A stretch of DNA of 33,892 nucleotides, from positions 1-33,892 of the forward strand of contig REEQ01000056.1 of the NCBI GenBank assembly GCA_007695005.1. The letters run 5' to 3'. How positions within the stretch are numbered: position 1 is the stretch's first letter; the number at the start of each line of letters is the position of its first letter. The notes under the pieces are model-generated. The model had not been told where the DNA came from and searched no databases. It saw nothing but the letters and a program-made list of their open reading frames with translations. Source of the stretch: Wenzhouxiangellaceae bacterium (lineage in GTDB: Bacteria; Pseudomonadota; Gammaproteobacteria; Xanthomonadales; Wenzhouxiangellaceae). Made by a program: the position numbers and the translations under genes. Shown piece by piece: positions 17,658 through 31,766 of this stretch.

Positions 17658-18680
17658 CTAAAGCGTCAGCTTGGCTTCTCGGTACTGACCGGGTTGCGCA
17701 CCGTAGCGCCTGAAAAAACACCGGCTGAAATACGATAAATCGCTGAACCCCCAGTTCTGCGCAATATCGCCGATGGTCAGATTTGCATTTGCTGGATCGG
17801 CCAGGGCCTCGGCGCAGCGCTCAAGACGCTGATCAAGTAGCCATCTCGACACAGTCGTGCCTTGCGCCTGGAACAGTCGTTGCACCTGGCGGACCGACAG
17901 GTCGAATCGCTCGGCGATCCATGCACTATTGACTTGCCCGTGCGGCAACGCTGCCAACAAGGTGCTCTGGATACGACTGAGCAGGATTTGCCGGGAGAAA
18001 GCCGGATCACTGGCCGACGCCAGCGCGATCGGCTCGATCGCACTCAAGACCAGGCCAACAAAGTGGTCGTACAAACGGCGCCCATTGCCCCACGGTTCGT
18101 TTTCGGCAAGATCGGCCGGGTTCGCCAGGGATTTGAGAAATGAATGCAGGGTAGCACCCACCGGCTCGCGAACGCGGCTGGCATGTGCGCCGGGCGCATG
18201 AGGCTGCAAGGCCAGCAGGTCTGCACGCGGCAGCATGGCGGATACGAAGGCAAAATCGGCGTCGAACTCCAGGCTATAGCTTTGCGCGGAATCGACAAAC
18301 ACGGTCTGCCCGGTCTCCACCAGCTCGCGCTTGCCGCGAGCATTCAACCAGCCATAGCCACGCGTCATCGTGCTGACAAACAGCCAAGGGCCAGTCCCTG
18401 CCGCTATCTCTTCGCGACCCCGATGCAGAATCTGGGCCGAGGCATCAATCGCCAGCCAGCCCGAGGGGCCGAAGCGACCAAGGCGCAGGCTTGCCTGGAA
18501 ATCACCGACCTCAGGCGCCTTGCCTGGCGCGAGGTCCACCTCCGCCCTGACCGGCAGCACCAGGTCTGACAGGCACCCCTGCCACTCGGCCACCCGTTCG
18601 CTGACGCTGACATGAGGATTGCTGGCGCGGGCCAGAAACTGGCCAATACCAACATCGGCGATAGGGGATGGTGCGGACAT
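17658..18680 (-). CDS. AraC-family transcriptional regulator
   Basis: This 340-residue protein has an N-terminal sensor part that resembles the AraC-binding-like domain of FeaR-type regulators (about 30-200: GWLAIDASAQILHRGREEI, LFVSTMTRGYGWLNARGKR). A C-terminal pair of helix-turn-helix motifs follows (about 235-335: WIAERFDLSVRQVQRLF and TIGDIAQNWGFSDLSYFSR, then FRRYGAQPGQYRE). The ligand is unknown. It is divergent from the large propeller-repeat protein at a 168-bp gap, the usual layout when an AraC protein controls its neighbour. No ribosome binding site precedes the ATG, and a promoter-like pair ends 9 nt before it, so the mRNA may be leaderless. The conserved domain order makes the family assignment safe. 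Confidence 0.9.
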   Translation of the reverse strand: MSAPSPIADVGIGQFLARASNPHVSVSERVAEWQGCLSDLVLPVRAEVDLAPGKAPEVGDFQASLRLGRFGPSGWLAIDASAQILHRGREEIAAGTGPWLFVSTMTRGYGWLNARGKRELVETGQTVFVDSAQSYSLEFDADFAFVSAMLPRADLLALQPHAPGAHASRVREPVGATLHSFLKSLANPADLAENEPWGNGRRLYDHFVGLVLSAIEPIALASASDPAFSRQILLSRIQSTLLAALPHGQVNSAWIAERFDLSVRQVQRLFQAQGTTVSRWLLDQRLERCAEALADPANANLTIGDIAQNWGFSDLSYFSRCFFRRYGAQPGQYREAKLTL

Positions 18681-18848: not shown

Positions 18849-21800
18849 GTGTGCCTGGAAAAATTGTTCGACAGACTGCCACAAGGCCGAATCCTCGCTC
18901 CGCCCTGGCTGATCCCGGTCCTGCTTGGACTGATCCTGAGTCAATCAGGCATGGCTGAAGAGACGCTGCTGCACGCATTCGCCCTGAACGAGATCGATGA
19001 AGGTGGCGCCACCCACGCTGTTGTCTGGCGCGGCGAGCGTCCTGCTCAGCTGCAGGTTCGAATCCAGGGGCTTCCGGATCGCATTGTCGAACATCGCGTG
19101 ATTGACGATCGCGTGACACTGCTCAGTCTCAGCCGTGTGCCCTCCTCGGTGCATTTTGATGTCCGAGACGAAAACGACGGCCTGCTGGCAACAACGCAGG
19201 CGCGTGCCATGCCGTTTGGCTGGCAGCCGGATGTGCCGGGTGTCGGCCCTGACAGGCCGATCGGTGCCGCCGTGATTTATCGGGATGAATTGGTCGTTGG
19301 CGGCTATTTTTCCGCCGTCGGCGGCTTCGCCTCCATGGCTTTGGCCCGTTTCGATGGCTATCGCTGGTTGCCTTTTGGCGACGACCAGGGTTCAGGCCTC
19401 AACCTGGGTGCTACCAGCGCGCAAGTCTTTGTCAACGATCTGGCTGTTTTCCAGGGCGACCTTTACGTTGCCGGCAGTTTCGGCGAAGCAGGCGACACCC
19501 CCGTCTTCAATATCGCCCGTTTTGACGGCAGTGGCTGGCATGCCGTTGGCGAGACGGGAAACATCGAGTGGATCGAGGGGCTACTGGCAACGGAAGACCG
19601 ACTCTACGTGACCGGCTCGTTCAGCGCCATTGGCGGACAGACCTCTCGACGCATTGCCGCCTGGGACGGTAAGACCTGGATTGGCATCAACCCTCAACCC
19701 CTTTCACCGGATGCTCCTCAGCCCAGCATCCACGCCATGGCCAAGTTCAACGGAGAGCTGATTGTTGGTGGCCAAATCGCCGAAATCGGCGGGGTCGCCG
19801 TCAACAACCTTGCCCGCTTCGATGGCAGCCAGTGGCACCCGCTGGATAATGGCACTACCGATGGCGTCAACGGCATTGTCCGCGCCCTGCAGGTTTTCCA
19901 GGACCATTTGATTGTCGCCGGAGGCTTCAGCGAGGCCGGCGGCGAGCCAGCCAATCGAATCGCGGCCTGGAATGGTGAAGCCTGGGGCGGTTTGGCCGTT
20001 GCGAACAACGGCTTTGATGGCCCGATCCTGACATTGGCGCTGTTCAACGGCCAAGTCGCCGCCGGCGGCGAGTTCAGTGGCGGCCTGTCCTTTTTCGGTG
20101 GCCACGGTTCCTGGACGCAAGCGATTGATTTATTCAATGTTCGAGTCATCCAGGATGTTGGATTCCTGACCGCGCTCGACCACCTGCTGGTCGTTTCCGG
20201 CACGTCAATCTTGGACACACCAACCGTGGGCCAGGCTGCCGTTTACTTGTATCACCCCAGCGGTTTCTGGACCGCGGCAGGTGAACGCTTCCAGCGCCGA
20301 CTCTTTGACTTCGTATCCGGCTTCCCTGTGAGCTTTTTTGGGTTTGGCAACACCTTGCTGGCAGGTGGCTTTCGGATGTGGGCACCGAATGTGAAGGACG
20401 CGGCTGTGTATTCCTATTGGGACGGCGAATCCTGGCGCGGCGCGGACTTTATTCCCGACCCCTCCTTCACCCGCGCTCACCAGTTCATCGAATTCCAGGA
20501 CGAGCTCTACCTGGCCGGTAGCTTTTTGACCGTCAACGACCAGACTTTCAATGGTATTGCGCGCTTTGACGGAGAAAACTGGCAGCCGCTGCCCGGGCCG
20601 GCAGGCATTGGCCTGGAAAGGGACAGCCCAGCGCCCACGCCGACGCTGAGCATGATCGAGTATCAAGGCCAGCTGGTTATCGGTGGCCCTTTTGACCGTG
20701 CTGGCGGGCTCCCGGCGGATGGGCTGGCCCGCTGGGACGGTGAAACCCTGCGACCATTCGATGCAGCGCTCGATGGCAAGCCATCGGGCCTGATCCGGAC
20801 CATGGCCGTGGTCGGCGACACCCTGTATCTGGGCGGTTCCTTGCAGTGGAGCAGTGACGATCGCATCTTTCTTGCCGGCTTCAACGGCGAGGAGTGGTTG
20901 CCCCGGCCCGGTTCTGACGGCCCCCGCCTCAACAATTCCGTATTGCGAATGACCGAGTTCAAGGGCGAGCTGGTTCTGACCGGGTTCTTCTCCCGCGTTG
21001 ATGATGAATACGTCGGCAGTGCGGTGCGTTTTGATGGCACCGAGTTTTTGCGGTTTCCCGGAGTGCCCAGCGAGGCGCCGACGCAGGGACAAGGTGGCAT
21101 CTCTTTTTCCGATTTCATTGCCGACGGTGATGACCTGGTGATAGCGGGATTAATGAGCCTGGATGACGGTCCTTATGAGTACCAGATCATCCGCTGGGAC
21201 GGGGAAAACTGGGGCGAGCGACTGCCGGACATTGCCCCTGTCTTCTCAGACAGGGTCTGGTCCGGCGCACGTTGGTTGACCCGGCTCAATGGCCAACTTC
21301 ACGCCCTCGCCAGTTTCGAGCGCGACGGCATAATCAACTTTGCCGAGGTATTCGCATTCGATGGCGAGGCCTGGCATCCAATAATCCCCCCGCCGGAACA
21401 GCTGCCAACCAGCGCCTGGTCAGTCCCGGCGAGAATCAACAGCGCGGCATGGCTGGATGATCAGCTAATGCTGGGAGGTGAATTCAGTCGCAGCCAGGGC
21501 CATCTGGCGGACTACCTGATCGCCTTCGACGGCCAGCACTGGACGCCAATGCCACCCGAGGACTCGCCCAACGGCGAAATCCTGGTGCTGATGCCGCACG
21601 AGGGCTGGCTTTATGTCGGGGGTCGCTTTACCCAGATCGGCGACGATTCGATGCCTTACCTGGCCCGCTGGAACGGCCAGCAGTGGGAAGGCATCGACGG
21701 TCTCAACGGGCCGGTCCATGCCATCGAGATCCACCAGGGGGAAATTTACGCAGGCGGTGAGTTTTCCCAGGCCAGCGCCACCCAGGTCAATTTCCTGGCC

Positions 21801-22799
21801 CGCCACGATGGCCAGCAGTGGCATCCGCTGACGGCCAGCGGACAGTCACCTGGCGTCAACTGCGGCAATGTCTGCTCAGACCCGCAGGTCTGGGCATTGA
21901 AGTCATTGGGCGACGAGTTGGCCGTAGGTGGCCGGTTCGTCGAGGCCGGCAATACACCTACCGGCGGTGTGGCCCGCTGGAACGGCGAGGGCTGGATCGC
22001 GCCCTGGCAAGGCGGCGACCTGCGACCCGTCGGGGAAGTGCGCGGTTTTGAAAGTTTCGACGATCATCTGATGGTCGCCTCGACGGGCGTTTCTTCACCG
22101 AACTTCCAACGCGCCTTCCCCAACCTGATGTTCTGGAGCGGCAGCGACTGGGAGACGCTCCCCGGCTTCAATGACGTGGATCGACCGCCCGGTGGCCTTG
22201 GGGCGATCAAACGCCTGGGCGATGAATTGTGGGTTGGCGAAACCTACCAGGGCTTCCTGAATCGTGGCACCGAGCTTAGGCGTAACGAGGAAGGCCACTG
22301 GGCCAACTTTGCTGCGCCTTCGGACGGATTGCTGCGCGGTGCGAACCAGATCCCCCGAACCCGGACCATCGTGCCATGGGACAACGGCGTAGCCATTGCC
22401 GGCGAGTGGTTCACTGTCGGCCGCCTCGGCTCTCATTCGTTCAGCCGCTGGCTGCCTGAGCCTGCTGAGGTCCGGATTGACAGTCTGTCGGCAGCGCTGA
22501 TCCCTGGCGGCGGCAGTGTCAGTGTCGTTGTCGCCGTCGACGGAGAAGTGCGCCGTCCACGCGGTGGCGTCGTGATTATCGAGTCCGAAAACGGTGAGCG
22601 CTGTGAAACTGCCCACTCCGCAAAGCTGGGTTCGAGCGTGCGGGTTTTTGAATGCGAACTGACCCTGGAAGGCAGCGGTGCAGTCAAGCTCAGCGCCCGC
22701 TATCTGGCCTCACCCAGCCACGAAACATCGCAGTCAGCACCCGCTCGTATTCTGGTCGGCGTGGCAGCCGAGCTGTTCCAGGATCGCTTTTCGGAGTAG
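18849..22799 (+). CDS. Giant secreted beta-propeller-repeat protein with C-terminal Ig-like domain
   Basis: I choose the GTG at 18849 (1,316 residues). GGAG lies 9 nt upstream, and the next hydrophobic stretch (APPWLIPVLLGLILSQSGMA) reads as a signal peptide. The in-frame ATG at 18612 would lie inside the AraC gene. After a roughly 100-residue N-terminal domain come about 21 repeats of 45-60 residues of the form '.LyvgG.F...gg....iArfdG..W.plg', for example LYVAGSFGEAGDTP and NIARFDGSGWHAVG. Some copies are degenerate. They resemble galactose-oxidase/kelch-like propeller blades. The last 100 residues form an Ig-like beta domain with a Cys pair (NGERCETA, VFECEL) and a terminal ELFQDRFSE. Function is unknown. 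Secretion, probably to the surface or outside, is likely. The start is uncertain; the frame is not. Confidence 0.85.
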   Translation: MCLEKLFDRLPQGRILAPPWLIPVLLGLILSQSGMAEETLLHAFALNEIDEGGATHAVVWRGERPAQLQVRIQGLPDRIVEHRVIDDRVTLLSLSRVPSSVHFDVRDENDGLLATTQARAMPFGWQPDVPGVGPDRPIGAAVIYRDELVVGGYFSAVGGFASMALARFDGYRWLPFGDDQGSGLNLGATSAQVFVNDLAVFQGDLYVAGSFGEAGDTPVFNIARFDGSGWHAVGETGNIEWIEGLLATEDRLYVTGSFSAIGGQTSRRIAAWDGKTWIGINPQPLSPDAPQPSIHAMAKFNGELIVGGQIAEIGGVAVNNLARFDGSQWHPLDNGTTDGVNGIVRALQVFQDHLIVAGGFSEAGGEPANRIAAWNGEAWGGLAVANNGFDGPILTLALFNGQVAAGGEFSGGLSFFGGHGSWTQAIDLFNVRVIQDVGFLTALDHLLVVSGTSILDTPTVGQAAVYLYHPSGFWTAAGERFQRRLFDFVSGFPVSFFGFGNTLLAGGFRMWAPNVKDAAVYSYWDGESWRGADFIPDPSFTRAHQFIEFQDELYLAGSFLTVNDQTFNGIARFDGENWQPLPGPAGIGLERDSPAPTPTLSMIEYQGQLVIGGPFDRAGGLPADGLARWDGETLRPFDAALDGKPSGLIRTMAVVGDTLYLGGSLQWSSDDRIFLAGFNGEEWLPRPGSDGPRLNNSVLRMTEFKGELVLTGFFSRVDDEYVGSAVRFDGTEFLRFPGVPSEAPTQGQGGISFSDFIADGDDLVIAGLMSLDDGPYEYQIIRWDGENWGERLPDIAPVFSDRVWSGARWLTRLNGQLHALASFERDGIINFAEVFAFDGEAWHPIIPPPEQLPTSAWSVPARINSAAWLDDQLMLGGEFSRSQGHLADYLIAFDGQHWTPMPPEDSPNGEILVLMPHEGWLYVGGRFTQIGDDSMPYLARWNGQQWEGIDGLNGPVHAIEIHQGEIYAGGEFSQASATQVNFLARHDGQQWHPLTASGQSPGVNCGNVCSDPQVWALKSLGDELAVGGRFVEAGNTPTGGVARWNGEGWIAPWQGGDLRPVGEVRGFESFDDHLMVASTGVSSPNFQRAFPNLMFWSGSDWETLPGFNDVDRPPGGLGAIKRLGDELWVGETYQGFLNRGTELRRNEEGHWANFAAPSDGLLRGANQIPRTRTIVPWDNGVAIAGEWFTVGRLGSHSFSRWLPEPAEVRIDSLSAALIPGGGSVSVVVAVDGEVRRPRGGVVIIESENGERCETAHSAKLGSSVRVFECELTLEGSGAVKLSARYLASPSHETSQSAPARILVGVAAELFQDRFSE

Positions 22800-22868: not shown

Positions 22869-23498
22869 TTACTCCACCAGCAGCGGCTCCAGCGCCGGCC
22901 ACAGGCGTTCGAGCATCAGCGGCTGGGCTTCGATGGTAGGGTGAATGCCGTCTTGCATCATCATGCCCGGCTGATCGAACAGGTCGTCGAGGAAGAACGG
23001 CAGCAGGGTAACGCCGTGTGCCTCGGCCAGGCGTGGATAGATGGCCTCGAAGCGGCTAACGTAGGCTGGCCCCAGATTCGGCGGCATGCGGATCTGCATC
23101 AGACCGACGCGGGCGCCCGAGCCCTTGCCCTTTTCGATCAGTGCCGCCAGATTCTGTTCTATCTGGCGCGGCGCCAGCGCACGCAGCCCATCGTTGCCGC
23201 CGAGGATGATCAGCAGCACGTCGGGCTCGAAGTCAGCCAGCAGACCGGCCAGGCGGCTCAAGCCCCCGGCCGTGGTTTCCCCGGATATGCTGGCATTGAT
23301 TACCCGTCGGTCTTCGCCCAGCCTTTCCGACAACAAGTGCGCCCAGCCAGCTTCACGCGGCATGTTGTAGGCGTCTGACAGACTATCTCCGATAACCAGT
23401 ACGGTAGCCGCGGCGGCCGGTGCCGCAATAATCATGGCTGCCAGCATGGCGGCGGCCGAAAGCATAATTCTGACAATGGACCAGCAATGACGGATCAT
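22869..23498 (-). CDS. tesA: SGNH-hydrolase, TesA-type lysophospholipase/arylesterase
   Basis: TesA is a periplasmic SGNH esterase with thioesterase, lysophospholipase and arylesterase activity. I choose the ATG at 23498 (209 residues), because the frame upstream of it runs through the ABC gene. The signal peptide is about 1-31 (SAAAMLAAMIIAAPAAA). Block I is VIGDSLSDAYNMP with nucleophile Ser39, block III is ILGGNDGLRAL, and block V (DGIHPTIEAQ) supplies Asp and His. AGGAGAG at 23511-23517 lies 12 nt before the ATG, somewhat far. An ATG at 23465 would give a shorter signal peptide. The tesA-ybbA divergent pair is conserved in E. coli and Pseudomonas. Confidence 0.93.
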   Translation of the reverse strand: MIRHCWSIVRIMLSAAAMLAAMIIAAPAAAATVLVIGDSLSDAYNMPREAGWAHLLSERLGEDRRVINASISGETTAGGLSRLAGLLADFEPDVLLIILGGNDGLRALAPRQIEQNLAALIEKGKGSGARVGLMQIRMPPNLGPAYVSRFEAIYPRLAEAHGVTLLPFFLDDLFDQPGMMMQDGIHPTIEAQPLMLERLWPALEPLLVE

Positions 23499-24227
23499 GG
23501 GCAAAAAATTCTCTCCTGTCGCAACGTGGGCTTCAGCGTCCAGGCGCCGGGCGGCCAACTCGATATTCTCAAGGATATCAACCTGAGCCTGAACGAAGCC
23601 GAAACGCTGGCCATTGTTGGCGCCTCGGGATCGGGCAAGACCACCCTGCTCGGCCTACTGGCCGGGCTGGAGCGCCCAACCACAGGTGAGGTATGGCTGG
23701 CAGGCGAGCATCTCAACCGCCTCGACGAAAACGAACGCGCCCGCCTGCGCCGGCGCCGGGTCGGCTTCGTGTTCCAGTCCTTTCATCTGCTGCCCAGCCT
23801 GACCGCGCTGGAAAACGTCATGCTGGCGCTCGAGATCGCCGGCCTGGACCGGCCTCGCCAGCGCGCCACCCGCGCCCTGGAGCAAGTGGGCTTGAGTCAT
23901 CGCATGGCCCACTACCCTCGCCAGATGTCAGGCGGTGAGCAGCAACGCGTGGCCATCGCCCGCGCTTTTGCCGGAGACCCGGCGGTGCTGTTCGCCGACG
24001 AGCCCACCGGCAACCTGGATCGCAACACCGGCGAATCCGTTGCCAGGTTGTTGTTCGACATCAATCGCGAGCACGGCACCGCCCTGGTCCTGGTGACTCA
24101 TGACCTGAACCTGGCCCGGCGCTGCGGCCGGATCGAGGAAATCGAGGACGGCAGCCTGATCAGCGGTCAGGATGGGGCCCAGAGCGAGAGCGGTCGCGAG
24201 CGCTTCCGCCTGGTCGACAAGGGATGA
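23487..24227 (+). CDS. ybbA: ABC transporter ATP-binding protein, YbbA family
   Basis: This 246-residue ATPase belongs to the MacB/LolD-like group that works with FtsX-type permeases. Walker A is GASGSGKTT (about 45-53). The Q-loop is [11 protein letters not shown], the signature [14 protein letters not shown], Walker [14 protein letters not shown], and the switch histidine lies in [10 protein letters not shown]. The ATG at 23487 is 12 bp inside the start of tesA on the other strand, so the two 5' ends overlap. The stop overlaps the permease ATG (ATGA). In E. coli ybbA and ybbP stand in the same order beside tesA. The substrate of this exporter group is not firmly known; lipids or toxic alcohols have been suggested. 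Confidence 0.94.
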
Positions 24228-26695
24228 GTAGCGGCATGAATGCCTTTGCCCTGTCCGGGCGCCTGCTGCTTCGCCAGGGCCGCTCTGGCGCCCTGGGCCT
24301 GCTGGCCGCCGGCCTGATTGTCGCAACTGCCGCGCTGGTCGCGGTCAGTCAGTTCACCGACCGGGTCGGGCGTGCGCTGGAGCGCGAGGCCGGAGAGGCC
24401 CTTGCCGCTGATCTGGTTGTCACCGGGCGCGACCGCATCAATCCAGAGATCGTCGAGCAAGCCCGCGCCATGGGCCTGGAGACCTCCGAAGTCATTCTAA
24501 TGAGCACCGCGGTGTTCATCGGCGACGACAGCATGCTGATCGACGTCAAAGGCGTGTCCGAGGGCTATCCGCTCAGGGGGCAGCTGCTGCTGGCCGACCG
24601 CCTGGGCGGTGAGGAACAGGGCCACGTCGGGATTCCCGAGCGCGGCCAGGCGTGGATGGAGCCGCGTGGGCTGCGCTACCTGGACGCCGACACCGGCGAC
24701 ATGACCGACCTGGGCACCCGTGAGCTGACCATCAGCCGCTCGCTGGTGTTCGAGCCGGATCGCGGCGGATCGCGCTTCATGCTCGCCCCGCGAATGATGG
24801 TCAACCTGGCCGACCTGCTGGAGAGTGAACTGCTGGGGCCCGGCGCCCGGGCGCGCTATCGGCTGCTGGTCGCCGGCGGCGAAGGCGATGTAGACGCCTT
24901 TCGCCGCTGGCTGGAACCGCGCCTGGACGATGCCGAGCTGGGCATCATCACGGTGCGAGATGCCGAAGACCAGACCGGCCTGGCCCTGACGCAGGCCAGG
25001 CGGTTCCTCGGGATTGCCGCCCTGACCACGGTGATCCTGGCTGCCGTTGCCATCCTGCTGTCGGCGCTGCGATTTGCCTCGGCCCAGCGTGACCTGGTCG
25101 CGCTGCTGAAATCTTTCGGCGCGACCGGCAACCAGGTCATGGCCGCCTTGTCGCTGATGCTGTTGTGGCTGGTGCTGGTGGCGGTGATCATCGGCGGGCT
25201 GGCCGGGCTGGGTGCCCAGGCAATGATTGCCGAGATCCTGGCCGACGGTCCCGCTGGCGCACTACCGCCGCCGCGCCTGGCGCCGGTGCTGGGCGGCGGC
25301 CTGTTCACTCTGCTGCTGGCCGCCGGCTTCGCCTTGCCGCCGCTGATCAATCTGCGCCAGGTACCGCCGATGCGGATTCTGAATCGGTCGCTGGACAACC
25401 GGATCGGCTTGTCACGGCTGCTTTGGCTGCTGCCCATTGCCGGCGCCCTGGCCATCCCGGTGTTCCAGCTCGGCCATACCCGGCTGGCCCTGATCGTACT
25501 TGGCGGCAGCGCCGTGCTGGCACTGGCCCTTGCCCTTTTCGGCTGGCTGGCGATGATCTTCACCCGGCTGCTGTCGCGCCGGGCTACGGCCGCCTGGCGC
25601 TTCGGCCTGGCCGGCCTGCATCGCCGTCGCGGCGCCGGCATTGTCCAGGTCACGGCCTTAGGGTTAGGCCTGATGGCACTGCTGTTGCTGATGATCGTGC
25701 GCGCCGAACTGCTGGAGCAGTGGCGCGGCAGCCTGCCGCCGGACACGCCGGATCACTTCCTGGTCAACATCCAGCCCGACCAGGTTGACGCGGTCCAGGA
25801 TGAGCTGATCCGGGTCGGTGCGCGCAATCTGCAGGTCCGGCCGATGGCCAACGTCAATCTGGTTGCCTCCAGCGGCGAGCTGCAGCGTGATGACCGTATG
25901 GCCGGCCAGATCAACCTGTCCTGGATTGATGAGCTGCCGCCGGCCAACCGAGTAATTGCCGGCGAGTTTTTCGCTCCCGATGCCACCGGAGAAGTGTCGC
26001 TGGCCGACATGTGGGCGCAGCGCCTGGGTGTCGAACTGGGCGACGAGTTGACCTTCGAGTCCGGTGCGCGGCGATTCACCGCCACCGTGACCAGCATTCG
26101 CGAGGTCGACTGGAACTCCTTCAACGTCAATTTCTTCGTCCTGCTGACCCCGGATGCCGGCGAACTGCTGCCGCACCAGTTCATTGCCAGCTTCTACCTG
26201 GCCGATGGCGACGGCAGCGTGCTCAGGCCCATGTCGAGGACATGGCCGAACGTGTCAGTGATCGACGTCGGGGCCATCATCGCGCGTATCGGCGACATCA
26301 TCGACCGGGTCAGTTCCGCCGCCCAGGTGGTGTTTTTGTTCACCCTGCTGGCCGGCCTGGTCGTGCTGCTGGCCGCGCTTGAGGCCACCCGCGACGAGCG
26401 TCGCCATGAATCCGCCCTGATCCGGACCCTGGGTGCCGACAACCCGATGGTCCGGCGCGGCCTGCTGATCGAGTACGGCATCATGGCCGTGATTGCCGCC
26501 CTGCTGGCCACGGTCGGATCGGCTGCCACCGGCTGGCTGCTGGCCCGCGAGCTGTTCGACTTTGCCTATCAGCCCTCGCTGCGCCTGTTCCTAACCGGGT
26601 TTGTCGCCTCGGTGGTTCTGGTGGTAGGCAGCGGCTGGTTGGGCAACCGGTCGGTGCTGTCGACACCGCCGGTTCGCATCCTGCGCACCGGCTGA
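24224..26695 (+). CDS. ybbP: ABC transporter permease with FtsX-like domains, YbbP family
   Basis: This 823-residue permease is the partner of YbbA. A first helix near the N-terminus (LGLLAAGLIVATAALVAV) leads into a periplasmic domain (about 45-260, VVTGRDRINPEIVEQA, FEPDRGGSRFMLAPRMM). Three helices with the first FtsX core follow (about 262-375). Then come a pair of central helices, a second large periplasmic domain (about 505-690) and a C-terminal FtsX core (about 700-815). Two FtsX units in one chain is normal for YbbP, so no separate second permease is needed. An in-frame ATG five codons later (MNAFALSG) could also be the start. Translation is coupled to ybbA by an ATGA overlap. Confidence 0.92.
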   Translation: MSSGMNAFALSGRLLLRQGRSGALGLLAAGLIVATAALVAVSQFTDRVGRALEREAGEALAADLVVTGRDRINPEIVEQARAMGLETSEVILMSTAVFIGDDSMLIDVKGVSEGYPLRGQLLLADRLGGEEQGHVGIPERGQAWMEPRGLRYLDADTGDMTDLGTRELTISRSLVFEPDRGGSRFMLAPRMMVNLADLLESELLGPGARARYRLLVAGGEGDVDAFRRWLEPRLDDAELGIITVRDAEDQTGLALTQARRFLGIAALTTVILAAVAILLSALRFASAQRDLVALLKSFGATGNQVMAALSLMLLWLVLVAVIIGGLAGLGAQAMIAEILADGPAGALPPPRLAPVLGGGLFTLLLAAGFALPPLINLRQVPPMRILNRSLDNRIGLSRLLWLLPIAGALAIPVFQLGHTRLALIVLGGSAVLALALALFGWLAMIFTRLLSRRATAAWRFGLAGLHRRRGAGIVQVTALGLGLMALLLLMIVRAELLEQWRGSLPPDTPDHFLVNIQPDQVDAVQDELIRVGARNLQVRPMANVNLVASSGELQRDDRMAGQINLSWIDELPPANRVIAGEFFAPDATGEVSLADMWAQRLGVELGDELTFESGARRFTATVTSIREVDWNSFNVNFFVLLTPDAGELLPHQFIASFYLADGDGSVLRPMSRTWPNVSVIDVGAIIARIGDIIDRVSSAAQVVFLFTLLAGLVVLLAALEATRDERRHESALIRTLGADNPMVRRGLLIEYGIMAVIAALLATVGSAATGWLLARELFDFAYQPSLRLFLTGFVASVVLVVGSGWLGNRSVLSTPPVRILRTG

Positions 26696-28702: not shown

Positions 28703-29293
28703 GTGAGCCAGTCCAACCAGGTAACTCGGCTTTTGCAGGCCTGGGCCTCGGGTGACCGGGCAGCGGGCGACGATCTGATGCCGATCGTCTACGCCGAGCT
28801 GAAACGCATATCCAGGGCGCAGCTGCGCGCCAGCGATGTGCCGGTCACCATGCAGGCCACCGAGCTGGTCAACGAAGCCTGGATGCGCCTGGCTGGCCAA
28901 CGCCAGGCTGACTGGAATGACCGAACCCATTTCTTCGCGCTCGCCTCGACCATGATCCGTCGAGTGATGCTGGATCATGCGCGCAAACGCTGTGCGCAAA
29001 GGCGTGATCGTCGTCTGGAGGTTCCGATCGACGACCAGTTCGAAGTCATGAGTGAAGCGCGGGCAGAAGAACTGGTACAACTGGATGAAGCCTTGGCTGA
29101 ACTCGAGCAGTTGGACCCCCGCCAGGCCCGGCTGGTCGAGCTGCGCTACTTCGGCGGTCTGACCATTGAGGAGACCGCGCACGTACTCGACATTTCGCCC
29201 TCGACGGTCAAACGCGACTGGCTACTTGCCCGGGCCTGGCTATTCCGCCGCGTCCAGGGCGAGGACGCCGAAGATGACGAAGCCGGTCAATAG
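28703..29293 (+). CDS. ECF-type RNA polymerase sigma factor (Sigma70-ECF family)
   Basis: This 196-residue sigma factor has region 2 at about 20-100 (PVTMQATELVNEAWMRLAGQ, FFALASTMIRRVMLDHARKR) and region 4 at about 130-185 (DPRQARLVELRYFGGLTIEE, ISPSTVKRDWLLARAWLFR). The ELVNEAW and FFALAS segments are typical of the sigma subfamily found beside Ser/Thr kinases in Xanthomonadales-like and planctomycete genomes. There is no anti-sigma gene; the kinase gene follows and overlaps it by 20 nt. The start is a GTG with AGGA about 6 nt upstream. An ATG one base earlier (ATGTGA) runs at once into a stop. The sigma factor is probably controlled by phosphorylation from the kinase, which is an inference from gene order. 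Confidence 0.92.
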   Translation: MSQSNQVTRLLQAWASGDRAAGDDLMPIVYAELKRISRAQLRASDVPVTMQATELVNEAWMRLAGQRQADWNDRTHFFALASTMIRRVMLDHARKRCAQRRDRRLEVPIDDQFEVMSEARAEELVQLDEALAELEQLDPRQARLVELRYFGGLTIEETAHVLDISPSTVKRDWLLARAWLFRRVQGEDAEDDEAGQ

Positions 29294-31766
29294 CATGGAT
29301 CCGGTCCGCTGGCGCAGGGTCAACGAGCTCTTCGACCAGCTGATTTCCATTGACGACCTGGCCCAACGCAAGTCTCGCCTTGAGGCCGCCTGCGGCGAAG
29401 ACGCGACGCTGAAATCGGAGGTGGCGTCGCTTCTGGCCGCGCATGATGCGAGCACCGGGTTTCTTGATCAAGCCGTCGTCACCGAGTCGGCGGCCATTCT
29501 CGATATGGAGGGAAAGTCTCGCTGGCTTGGCAGACAGATCGGGCCATGGCAAATCGAACAGCTCATTCACGCCGGCGGCATGGGATCGGTTTACCGCGCC
29601 CGCAGAGTTTCGGGCGACTTTGCCCAGACGGCCGCCCTCAAGCTGGTTCGGATGGAGTTGCCCGGCAGCGACCAGCTGCGCCGCTTTGCGCTCGAGCAGC
29701 AGGTACTGGCCAGCCTGCAACATCCCAACATCGCCCATCTGCTCGATGGTGGAACGACCGAGGACGGTGTGCCGTGGCTGGCCATGGAATACATCGATGG
29801 CGAACCCATTGATCACTGGTGCAATCAGAGGCGCCTGACCGTAGCCCAGCGCCTGGGCCTGTTCGAACAGGTATGCGATGCGGTCTCGTTCGCGCATCGC
29901 AATCTGGTCATTCATCGCGACATCAAGCCTGACAATATTCTTGTCAACCGGGAATCGGTACCGAAACTGCTGGATTTCGGCATTGCCAAGCTGCTCGACG
30001 AGCACAACATCGGGCATGCCCAGACCATCACCCGGCAACGCATGCTGACACCAGCCTACGCCAGTCCCGAACAATTTCTGGGCAAGCCCGTCGGAACGAC
30101 CAGCGATGTCTATTCGCTGGGCATGTTGCTGTATCAGCTGCTGACCGGCCAGCCAGCCTATCGCATTACCGCTGAAACCGCCCTGCCCGACTGTGAACGC
30201 CTGATCTGTCGTACCGACCCTCCGCCCCCAAGCCTGACGGCGATCAGCACTCGCGATGGCGGCCGCGCTGCGGCCGAACGCCGGGTCAGCCCGGAGCAGC
30301 TCAAGCGGCAGATCAAGGGCGACCTGGATGTCATTGTCCTGAAGTGCCTGCGCAAGGAGCCCGAGCGACGCTACCCTTCGGTGGATGCGCTGATCGAGGA
30401 CATTCGACGCTACCGCGAAGGCTTCCCGGTCAGCGCAAGGCCGGACACCATGAGCTACCGGGCATCTCGATTCGCACGTCGTCACTGGCTGGGTCTCTCG
30501 GCCACCACGTCCATCATGCTGGCACTGGGCATCGGCCTGATCATTGCAGTGGTGCAAACCGACAAGGCCCGCGAGGAGCGCGATCGCACCTTGCAGATCA
30601 ACCGTTTTCTGCAGGAGATCCTGGTCCAGGCCGACCCTTTCGAGACCGGCGCAGACGCGACCATTCGCGAAGTCGTGGCCCGAGCCGACCGCATGGTTCA
30701 GGAGCGCTTCATCGGCCAGGACGACCTTAGAGGCAGCCTGCTGCGCACCATCGGCTACATCCAGCTGGGCCTGATGGATCTGGACGCATCGGAGGCCAGC
30801 ATTCGGGAGGCAGTCAACATCAAGCATCGTCTTTATGGGCCCAATGATGAGCGCAGCCTGCGGGCAAGATCACATCTGGCCTGGATCGAGTTTCGGCGCG
30901 ATCGTCCGGAAACCGCGCTGGTCCAATATGAGGCGATCATCGACAAACTGCCGCACCGCGCATCCAAAGAATTCGTCGGTACGCTGCTGAATGATTCTGC
31001 GGTGATCCTCAATAATCTCGAACGTTACGAGGAAAGTATTGCTCGACTGGAGCGATCACTGGCCCTGTGGCTGGCCGTTGACCCGGAGCGCCCGGACATC
31101 GCCAGCATTCACAACAACCTGGGTTATGCCTGGCACGGATTGGGCGACCTGGAGCAAGCTGAACACCATTACCGACAGGCTATTCTGATTGAGAAAGCTG
31201 CCTCCCCCAGACCTAACGCCAACCTTGCGATTGCACTGAACAACCTGGCCATCCTGGTTCAAGACCTGGGCCGACTGGACGATGCCCTGGAACTTCAGCG
31301 CCAGGCGATGAGCATTCGGCTCGATACCTTGGGTCCGAATCACCTGCAAACCGCCCTTGGCCACCTCAATCTCGGGCGGCTCTTGCTGCGCATGGAACAG
31401 CCTGCCCAAGCCCGGGTCGAGCTGCAGCAAGCCTTGTCCATCAGTCGCCGGAATCTGGAAGAGGATTCTCTTTTTGTACAACTGAGCCTTGCTTCGCTGG
31501 CTCGCAGTGACGCTCTGGAAGGCGATCCGTTGGCTGCCGCTGCGCGCCTGCGGGAGTCGCGCCAGACCCTGGAGCGGATCGGAGCACCGTGGCCTTTCAC
31601 GCTGGGTGTTGGCTTGTGGCAGGTCCAGGCATTGCTGGCAGCCGAGCGGAATCCGGAGGCCAGGACAGCGGCGCTCCGTGACCAGGTCCTTGCCCTGGAA
31701 CAGCTGGGAGAAGATCACGACATCAGCATGGAACTTCGCAAGATTCTTGCCGACCTTCAGCCTTGA
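29274..31766 (+). CDS. Membrane-anchored Ser/Thr protein kinase with TPR-rich C-terminal half
   Basis: I choose the ATG at 29274 (830 residues) with GAGG 9 nt upstream, inside the end of the sigma gene. An ATG at 29295 is also possible. After a helical N-terminal extension (1-85) comes a Hanks-type kinase (about 92-385). Its parts are the glycine loop HAGGMGSVY, Lys123 (AALKLV), HRDIKPDN with Asp216, DFG at 234-236, and TPAYASPEQ in the activation region. The first glycine of the loop is replaced by His. One membrane helix follows (about 405-427, SIMLALGIGLIIAVV). The rest is helical TPR-like sequence (AWHGLGDLEQAEHHYRQAI, ALNNLAILVQDLGRLDDAL), probably in the periplasm. All catalytic residues are otherwise present. 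It likely senses an envelope cue and acts on the overlapping sigma factor; substrates are not shown. Confidence 0.92.
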   Translation: MTKPVNSMDPVRWRRVNELFDQLISIDDLAQRKSRLEAACGEDATLKSEVASLLAAHDASTGFLDQAVVTESAAILDMEGKSRWLGRQIGPWQIEQLIHAGGMGSVYRARRVSGDFAQTAALKLVRMELPGSDQLRRFALEQQVLASLQHPNIAHLLDGGTTEDGVPWLAMEYIDGEPIDHWCNQRRLTVAQRLGLFEQVCDAVSFAHRNLVIHRDIKPDNILVNRESVPKLLDFGIAKLLDEHNIGHAQTITRQRMLTPAYASPEQFLGKPVGTTSDVYSLGMLLYQLLTGQPAYRITAETALPDCERLICRTDPPPPSLTAISTRDGGRAAAERRVSPEQLKRQIKGDLDVIVLKCLRKEPERRYPSVDALIEDIRRYREGFPVSARPDTMSYRASRFARRHWLGLSATTSIMLALGIGLIIAVVQTDKAREERDRTLQINRFLQEILVQADPFETGADATIREVVARADRMVQERFIGQDDLRGSLLRTIGYIQLGLMDLDASEASIREAVNIKHRLYGPNDERSLRARSHLAWIEFRRDRPETALVQYEAIIDKLPHRASKEFVGTLLNDSAVILNNLERYEESIARLERSLALWLAVDPERPDIASIHNNLGYAWHGLGDLEQAEHHYRQAILIEKAASPRPNANLAIALNNLAILVQDLGRLDDALELQRQAMSIRLDTLGPNHLQTALGHLNLGRLLLRMEQPAQARVELQQALSISRRNLEEDSLFVQLSLASLARSDALEGDPLAAAARLRESRQTLERIGAPWPFTLGVGLWQVQALLAAERNPEARTAALRDQVLALEQLGEDHDISMELRKILADLQP

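Follow-up and report, generated by a model that had tools for sequence, protein, structure and literature searches.

The window analysed here, a 33,892-nucleotide stretch of one contig from a Wenzhouxiangellaceae bacterium, carries a gene for a 1316-residue protein with a long run of propeller-like units. The reading frame, strand and coordinates proposed in an earlier note on this DNA are correct (Table 1). A GGAG lies 9 bases upstream of the GTG start, and an alternative longer frame from 18612 overlaps the divergent AraC gene (17658-18680, minus strand). Setting the units by hand gives 21 in an unbroken row, each some 50 residues long, over residues 138-1212, which bears out the earlier count of about 21 copies. 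Each unit has strands around 'AL.VF.G.LYVGG.F', 'N.IARFDG' and 'W.PLG'. Judged from the sequence, the most likely arrangement of these units is three seven-bladed rings in a row.

The units were scored with two profiles. A blade hidden Markov model (HMM) seeded from 12 of the protein's own 21 units gives 18 matches in the protein, 13 of them at 35 bits or more. Twelve of these 13 are seed units, whose scores (55-71 bits) are circular, so that only unit 1 (35 bits) is independent among the top 13; units 13 and 14 score 16 and 11 bits, and the other non-seed units 5 bits or less. In 20 shuffled sequences the top match was 1.1 bits. The second, a family blade profile with 472 rows from which the window protein and its orthologs were excluded, recovers units 1-5 and 8-19 at 82-99.5% probability, units 6 and 21 at about 55%, unit 20 at 10% and unit 7 at 4.5%. 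We called unit 7 as well as units 20 and 21 from spacing and pattern. The worn units are 6-8, 13-14 and 19-21, a near match to the earlier description of worn copies in the middle of the protein and at 19-21.

The family of these units was described earlier as known only loosely. It is better known than that: the protein exceeds the Pfam cut-offs of both Rax2 (PF12768; 58.5 bits, cut-off 28.8) and DUF5122 (PF17164; 62.5 bits, cut-off 27), and its likeness to these families lies in the unit sequence. In fungi, Rax2 serves in polarity and is fixed in the membrane by a transmembrane anchor; the window protein differs in being bacterial and in having three proposed rings. When ten 14-unit relatives were combined in one profile, it matched a solved structure, the kelch domain of the influenza NS1A-binding protein (6n3h, 5yy8; E about 2.7e-7, 262 positions). 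The window protein alone found no match better than 0.55 in the PDB. Matches of the family profile to release factor 3 (E 0.003-0.02, 46 positions) are considered chance. The kelch motif is marked by a GG doublet and a conserved W, and both occur in the units described here; the difference is that the match to the solved domain spans one domain, while the window protein has 21 units. A further structure that bears on the fold is 2ymu_A, which we take to be a WD40 propeller. It was the best template when DUF5122 was modelled, according to PMC8078820. A disrupted seven-bladed Kelch-like propeller from a Verrucomicrobia bacterium is described in PMC9218822.

Grouping by seven is supported by three kinds of evidence: unit counts of relatives that cluster at 7 and 14, a wear period of seven, and a low unit 7 in 14-unit relatives. 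For the counts we used two sets of open reading frames (ORFs), each ORF being kept if it had at least five units of at least 10 bits and dropped if it had fewer; gaps were filled at 51 residues per unit. Set 1 comprised 39 gene places picked from the matches listed (plus the flank L074) together with the window, L004, L005 and L007, giving 45 ORFs, of which 30 have 14 units after filling, five have 7 and four have 13; counts of 6, 8, 9 and 18 occur once each and 19 twice. Set 2, with 40 loci that we picked and none of which was used in building the HMM, gave 42 ORFs, with 14 units in 16, 13 in 13 and 7 in eight, while 9 (open at one end), 15, 16, 21 and 2+7 occur once each. It is important to note that set 2 is biased: most of it was found by a profile of 14-unit proteins and part was chosen for long frames. 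Over both sets the filled counts are 14 in 46, 13 in 17 and 7 in 13 of the 87 ORFs. Thus 59/87 have exactly 7 or 14 units (51/87 without gap filling) and 76/87 if 13 is counted as 14; none falls at 10-12. In several of the 13-count ORFs the closing unit has probably been missed, because the terminal unit of five of them (L108, L115, L117, L118, L119) scores 43-54 bits, compared to a mean of 20.5 bits for the closing unit of 14-unit proteins; this reading relies on five of the 17 such ORFs.

Wear along the window protein, measured as family blade profile score, fits a period of seven units (R2 0.76, p 0.002), and periods 3-6 and 8-10 were tried and are not significant. In 26 relatives for which 14 units were detected, the score of unit 7 is on average 9.2 bits below that of the other inner units (Wilcoxon p 2e-5, with ten units tested). 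The lowest score overall is that of unit 14. The relatives of the same order that have one or two rings, such as L035 with 7 units and L036 with 14, share the unit, a W before unit 1 and often a tail with the window protein; they have 7 or 14 units as compared to its 21. The window protein is unusually large in its family, whose members have mostly one or two rings. If the counts form a 7/14/21 series, as is likely, this would be a clean case of propellers gaining whole rings at constant blade number.

Strand-swap closure of propellers is well established, and the sequence around the units agrees with it: a W-strand stands before unit 1 and none was seen after the last unit. By eye, a W occurs within 30 residues upstream of unit 1 in 42 of the 45 ORFs of set 1; neither L058 ORF has one, and none was scored for the second frame of L070. 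No D-G-x-x-W strand was seen by eye after the last unit in the set-1 relatives (the window protein, L004 and L007 were set aside, since their rows have an inner unit at that place), and in relatives the chain after that unit often leads directly into the tail. Unit 21 is without a W-strand of its own and looks truncated, as strand-swap closure would explain. In such an arrangement the W-strand ahead of unit 1 would close ring 1, ring 2 would be closed by the W-strand of unit 7 and ring 3 by that of unit 14, which leaves unit 21 to end without any.

Table 1. Features of the propeller gene and its product, with positions in the window
Feature	Residues	Coordinates	Strand	Remark
Whole gene	1-1316	18849..22799	+	Open frame of 1316 aa; GTG at 18849, stop ends at 22799
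Signal peptide (putative)	~1-36	18849..18956	+	Hydrophobic core; N-termini of L004 and L007 similar
N-terminal domain	37-121	18957..19211	+	Without family; similarity to L007
W-strand before unit 1	122-137	19212..19259	+	Includes FGWQPDVPG; putative closing strand
Proposed ring 1, units 1-7	138-495	19260..20333	+	Units 6 and 7 worn; predicted boundary
Proposed ring 2, units 8-14	496-862	20334..21434	+	Units 8, 13 and 14 worn; predicted boundary
Proposed ring 3, units 15-21	863-1212	21435..22484	+	Units 19-21 worn; predicted boundary
Ig-like (Big_3_5-type) domain (predicted)	1213-1308	22485..22772	+	Cys pair 1252/1269
C-terminal tail		22773..22796	+	LFQDRFSE; loose tail motif in family ORFs

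Several observations weigh against three equal rings of seven. Units 7 and 20 are barely detectable, and automatic counting finds 19 units in the window protein, 18 in L004 and 19 in L007. Among the raw counts of the family there are also values that lie between 8 and 13, and others of 15-17. The p-value of the wear test is generous, since it was obtained on hand-set units with autocorrelated scores (lag 1 r 0.58) and in a trial of eight periods. An arrangement of the 21 units in unequal rings (e.g. 8+6+7 or 7+8+6), or with one ring incomplete or degraded, is in our opinion unlikely, and it has points in its favour. The worn block 6-8 straddles the proposed 7/8 seam. Among units 3-12 of the 14-unit relatives, the minimum falls on unit 7 in no more than 7/26, and the lowest inner unit is often another one (unit 6 in 6/26, unit 9 in 6/26, unit 8 in 4/26). 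Filled counts off the sevens occur in L038 (9), L110 (15), L111 (16) and L129 (2+7). Unequal rings are also known, as a 15-blade WD40 protein was modelled as 7+8 in PMC9218822. Against unequal rings, a wear period of seven outperforms six and eight, and the filled counts of the family concentrate at 7 and 14. Three rings of seven thus remain our preferred reading, and the closed rings themselves are something we infer.

Some family members call for separate comment. The nine units of L038 (1584-3257) are very regular, and a collapse of repeats in the assembly is possible. In L070 (2249-4779) 6 + 8 units lie in two overlapping frames of one gene, by a frameshift or an assembly error. L137 (326-5182, genome G211) belongs to a different family of the class and has a 1619-codon propeller frame. 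Several of its units are near-identical, and a hydrophobic basic stretch near its C-terminus stands in place of FxD[GR]FE. Its filled count is 21, with 16 units detected and irregular gaps, and we refrain from calling it another three-ring protein.

How the 21 blades arose was suggested earlier to be by old duplication. As far as copying of whole rings is concerned, this is not what we find. Units of equal phase have no excess similarity (residual -0.004, p 0.51), nor do units at lag 7 (-0.061), and the highest value is that of lag 13 (0.286, error 0.185); units 6, 7, 19 and 20 retain few alignment columns, so that the test is weak for those. Recent whole-ring duplication is rejected, and whole-ring copying in general is not shown, because units at equal ring position are no more alike than others. 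Amplification of a single blade followed by divergence would account for the data equally well, and to this extent the earlier suggestion holds. Multi-ring propellers arising by single-blade amplification, with 15 blades as 7+8 and with 47 blades, are described in PMC9218822. There, too, consecutive blades give more than one ring; according to that source the 15- and 47-blade proteins are fungal with nearly identical repeats, whereas the blades of the window protein are well diverged. Three propellers in one chain are also found in the eukaryotic proteins DDB1 and CPSF160. These are intracellular, and no relation of the window protein to them was found, no search aimed at it being made. The window protein is thus a large variant of a known fold of which multi-ring forms are already known. 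Our literature search found no paper that combined Wenzhouxiangella with a propeller, or Rax2 and bacterial with a beta-propeller domain.

The 1316-residue protein is probably exported, as judged from its N-terminus. The first 36 residues contain a hydrophobic core (12-residue Kyte-Doolittle maximum 2.4), with a putative cleavage after ...SGMA. Four Cys follow residue 36 (1005, 1009, 1252, 1269); all are conserved in L004 and L007 and would be compatible with disulfides in an exported protein. What speaks against this topology is a stretch at residues 1212-1230 with the highest 19-residue hydropathy after residue 41 (1.71), slightly above the classical threshold of 1.6 for membrane helices. 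It lies within the immunoglobulin-like (Ig-like) domain, and we take it to be a predicted beta-strand. That domain (residues 1213-1308) resembles a stretch of L063 (E 1.5e-11 among eight sequences that we chose), which matches Pfam Big_3_5 at 28 bits, below the cut-off of 35.5; it is common to L036, L050, L063 and L069. The N-terminal domain is weakly similar to two relatives, L036 (E 0.00065) and L059 (E 0.008), and residues 37-137 are 61% identical to L007 (62/101).

The closest relative in the genome collection is L004, from the metagenome-assembled genome Wenzhouxiangella sp. CSSed162cmA_42 (87-88% identity). Between it and the window, nonsynonymous divergence (dN) is 0.063 and synonymous divergence (dS) 0.372 over residues 37-1316 (dN/dS about 0.17), because of which we regard the gene as being under purifying selection. 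Relatives are scarce beyond the order: in a class-wide draw they were found in 3/228 other genomes (E 1e-10), and at least two of the 228 genomes drawn belong to the same order.

Regarding function, we lean, with modest confidence, towards a Sec-exported protein whose mature chain would consist of the N-terminal domain, three seven-bladed Rax2/kelch-like propellers, the Ig-like domain and a short C-terminal tail, and which would act as a binding scaffold. What makes a scaffold the most likely predicted function is the fold together with the exported setting, the presence of an Ig-like domain and the relative L061 (1919-6685, open at the contig end), in which 14 units are followed by LRR, DUF11 and VWA domains. 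Such domains are common in surface proteins. If this is true, the protein would form a rigid multi-site scaffold outside the cytoplasm, the ring faces would bind protein or glycan ligands, and the tail would probably be a targeting or retention signal.

Two other functions deserve weighing. Many secreted kelch-like propellers are enzymes, and the protein could be a secreted enzyme on a propeller scaffold, galactose-oxidase-like or of the lyase type. We find this improbable: neither Pfam nor NCBIfam gives an enzyme family with an E of 1 or below, and the four Cys lie in two close pairs, 1005/1009 and 1252/1269, so that none is obviously free to form the Cys-Tyr cofactor that galactose oxidase needs. 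A structural stalk or spacer that has no specific ligand, or a protein in decay, would agree with the wear of 8/21 units and with the rarity of the long form, which among the matches listed was found in three of the 30 genus genomes searched (the own genome, which was one of the 30, G012, and G022 at 54% identity), several of them incomplete. The low dN/dS argues against this reading, as does the identity to L007, which is 36-54% for worn units (71% for unit 21) and 29-70% for clear ones. We therefore consider a stalk or a decaying protein rather unlikely, and the binding scaffold is kept as the preferred function.

The tail is not restricted to the window protein. A loose tail motif within the last 35 residues occurs in 57/87 family ORFs, as compared to 0.3 expected from shuffles for this loose form, and the strict form in 43/87; the 30/87 that do not have the loose form are without tail or open-ended, and they include a set of long proteins that end differently. 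In DNA of the own genome the FxD[GR]FE pattern is found 35 times and the reversed pattern twice. Of 30 loci listed from the 35, the motif stands at most 12 residues before a stop in 20 and does not in 10. The tail of the window protein itself falls outside this pattern (S for E). When 121 genomes of the order were counted by hand the distribution was patchy, with at least 10 matches in 18/19 genomes of the own family, 1/18 of f2, 2/18 of f8 and 3/18 of f12. One member from the own genome is the 7-unit paralog L035 (2349-4421 on contig C203), a 691-codon frame with the tail IFHDRFE and, after the ring, a Flg_new_2 match just at cut-off.

A role of the tail as targeting or retention signal is probable. 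There is no support for the two known kinds of tail handler that we considered, as neither follows the distribution of the tail. Rhombosortase, the handler of GlyGly-CTERM tails, is over cut-off in 2/30 chosen genomes, both tail-poor, with rhomboid-like matches below cut-off in all 30. Exosortase, its counterpart for PEP-CTERM tails, is over cut-off in 6/15 tail-rich and 3/15 tail-poor genomes (9/30), and the own genome has no match at E 1e-6. The type II secretion system secretin GspD is over cut-off in 15/15 tail-rich and 13/15 tail-poor genomes, with two copies in the own genome; export by this system is possible and would not explain the tail. Our literature search by motif spelling found no paper on the FxD[GR]FE tail. 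We tentatively propose, with some doubt, that the [IL]FxD[GR]FE-like tail is an undescribed sorting or surface-retention signal of many exported proteins of the order, served by a novel machine, and that the three-ring propeller is among its largest passengers. If so, the tail would label a whole group of exported proteins in this order and point to a machine still to be found, which would matter more than the ring series.

As to the neighbourhood, the position beside an AraC regulator pointed out earlier holds in the window and, by eye, in L004 (AraC / propeller / GDSL esterase / ABC / FtsX). It is not kept with the G022 ortholog, where the genes visible on the flanks are those of an epimerase and an amidohydrolase, and coupling to the AraC gene is rejected. 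So is phage origin: a search limited to close relatives found none in viral contigs. Phages gave one partial match, in a Leptospira phage (E 2e-9, covering 18% of the query), and three Hymenobacter plasmids gave partial matches (37-60% covered). RNA genes were looked for and none was found. Downstream, at 22869-26695, a GDSL esterase gene is divergent from genes for an ABC ATPase and an FtsX-like permease, an order that by eye is shared with L004. Further on, the gene at 29166-31766 encodes a protein kinase domain followed by TPR repeats.

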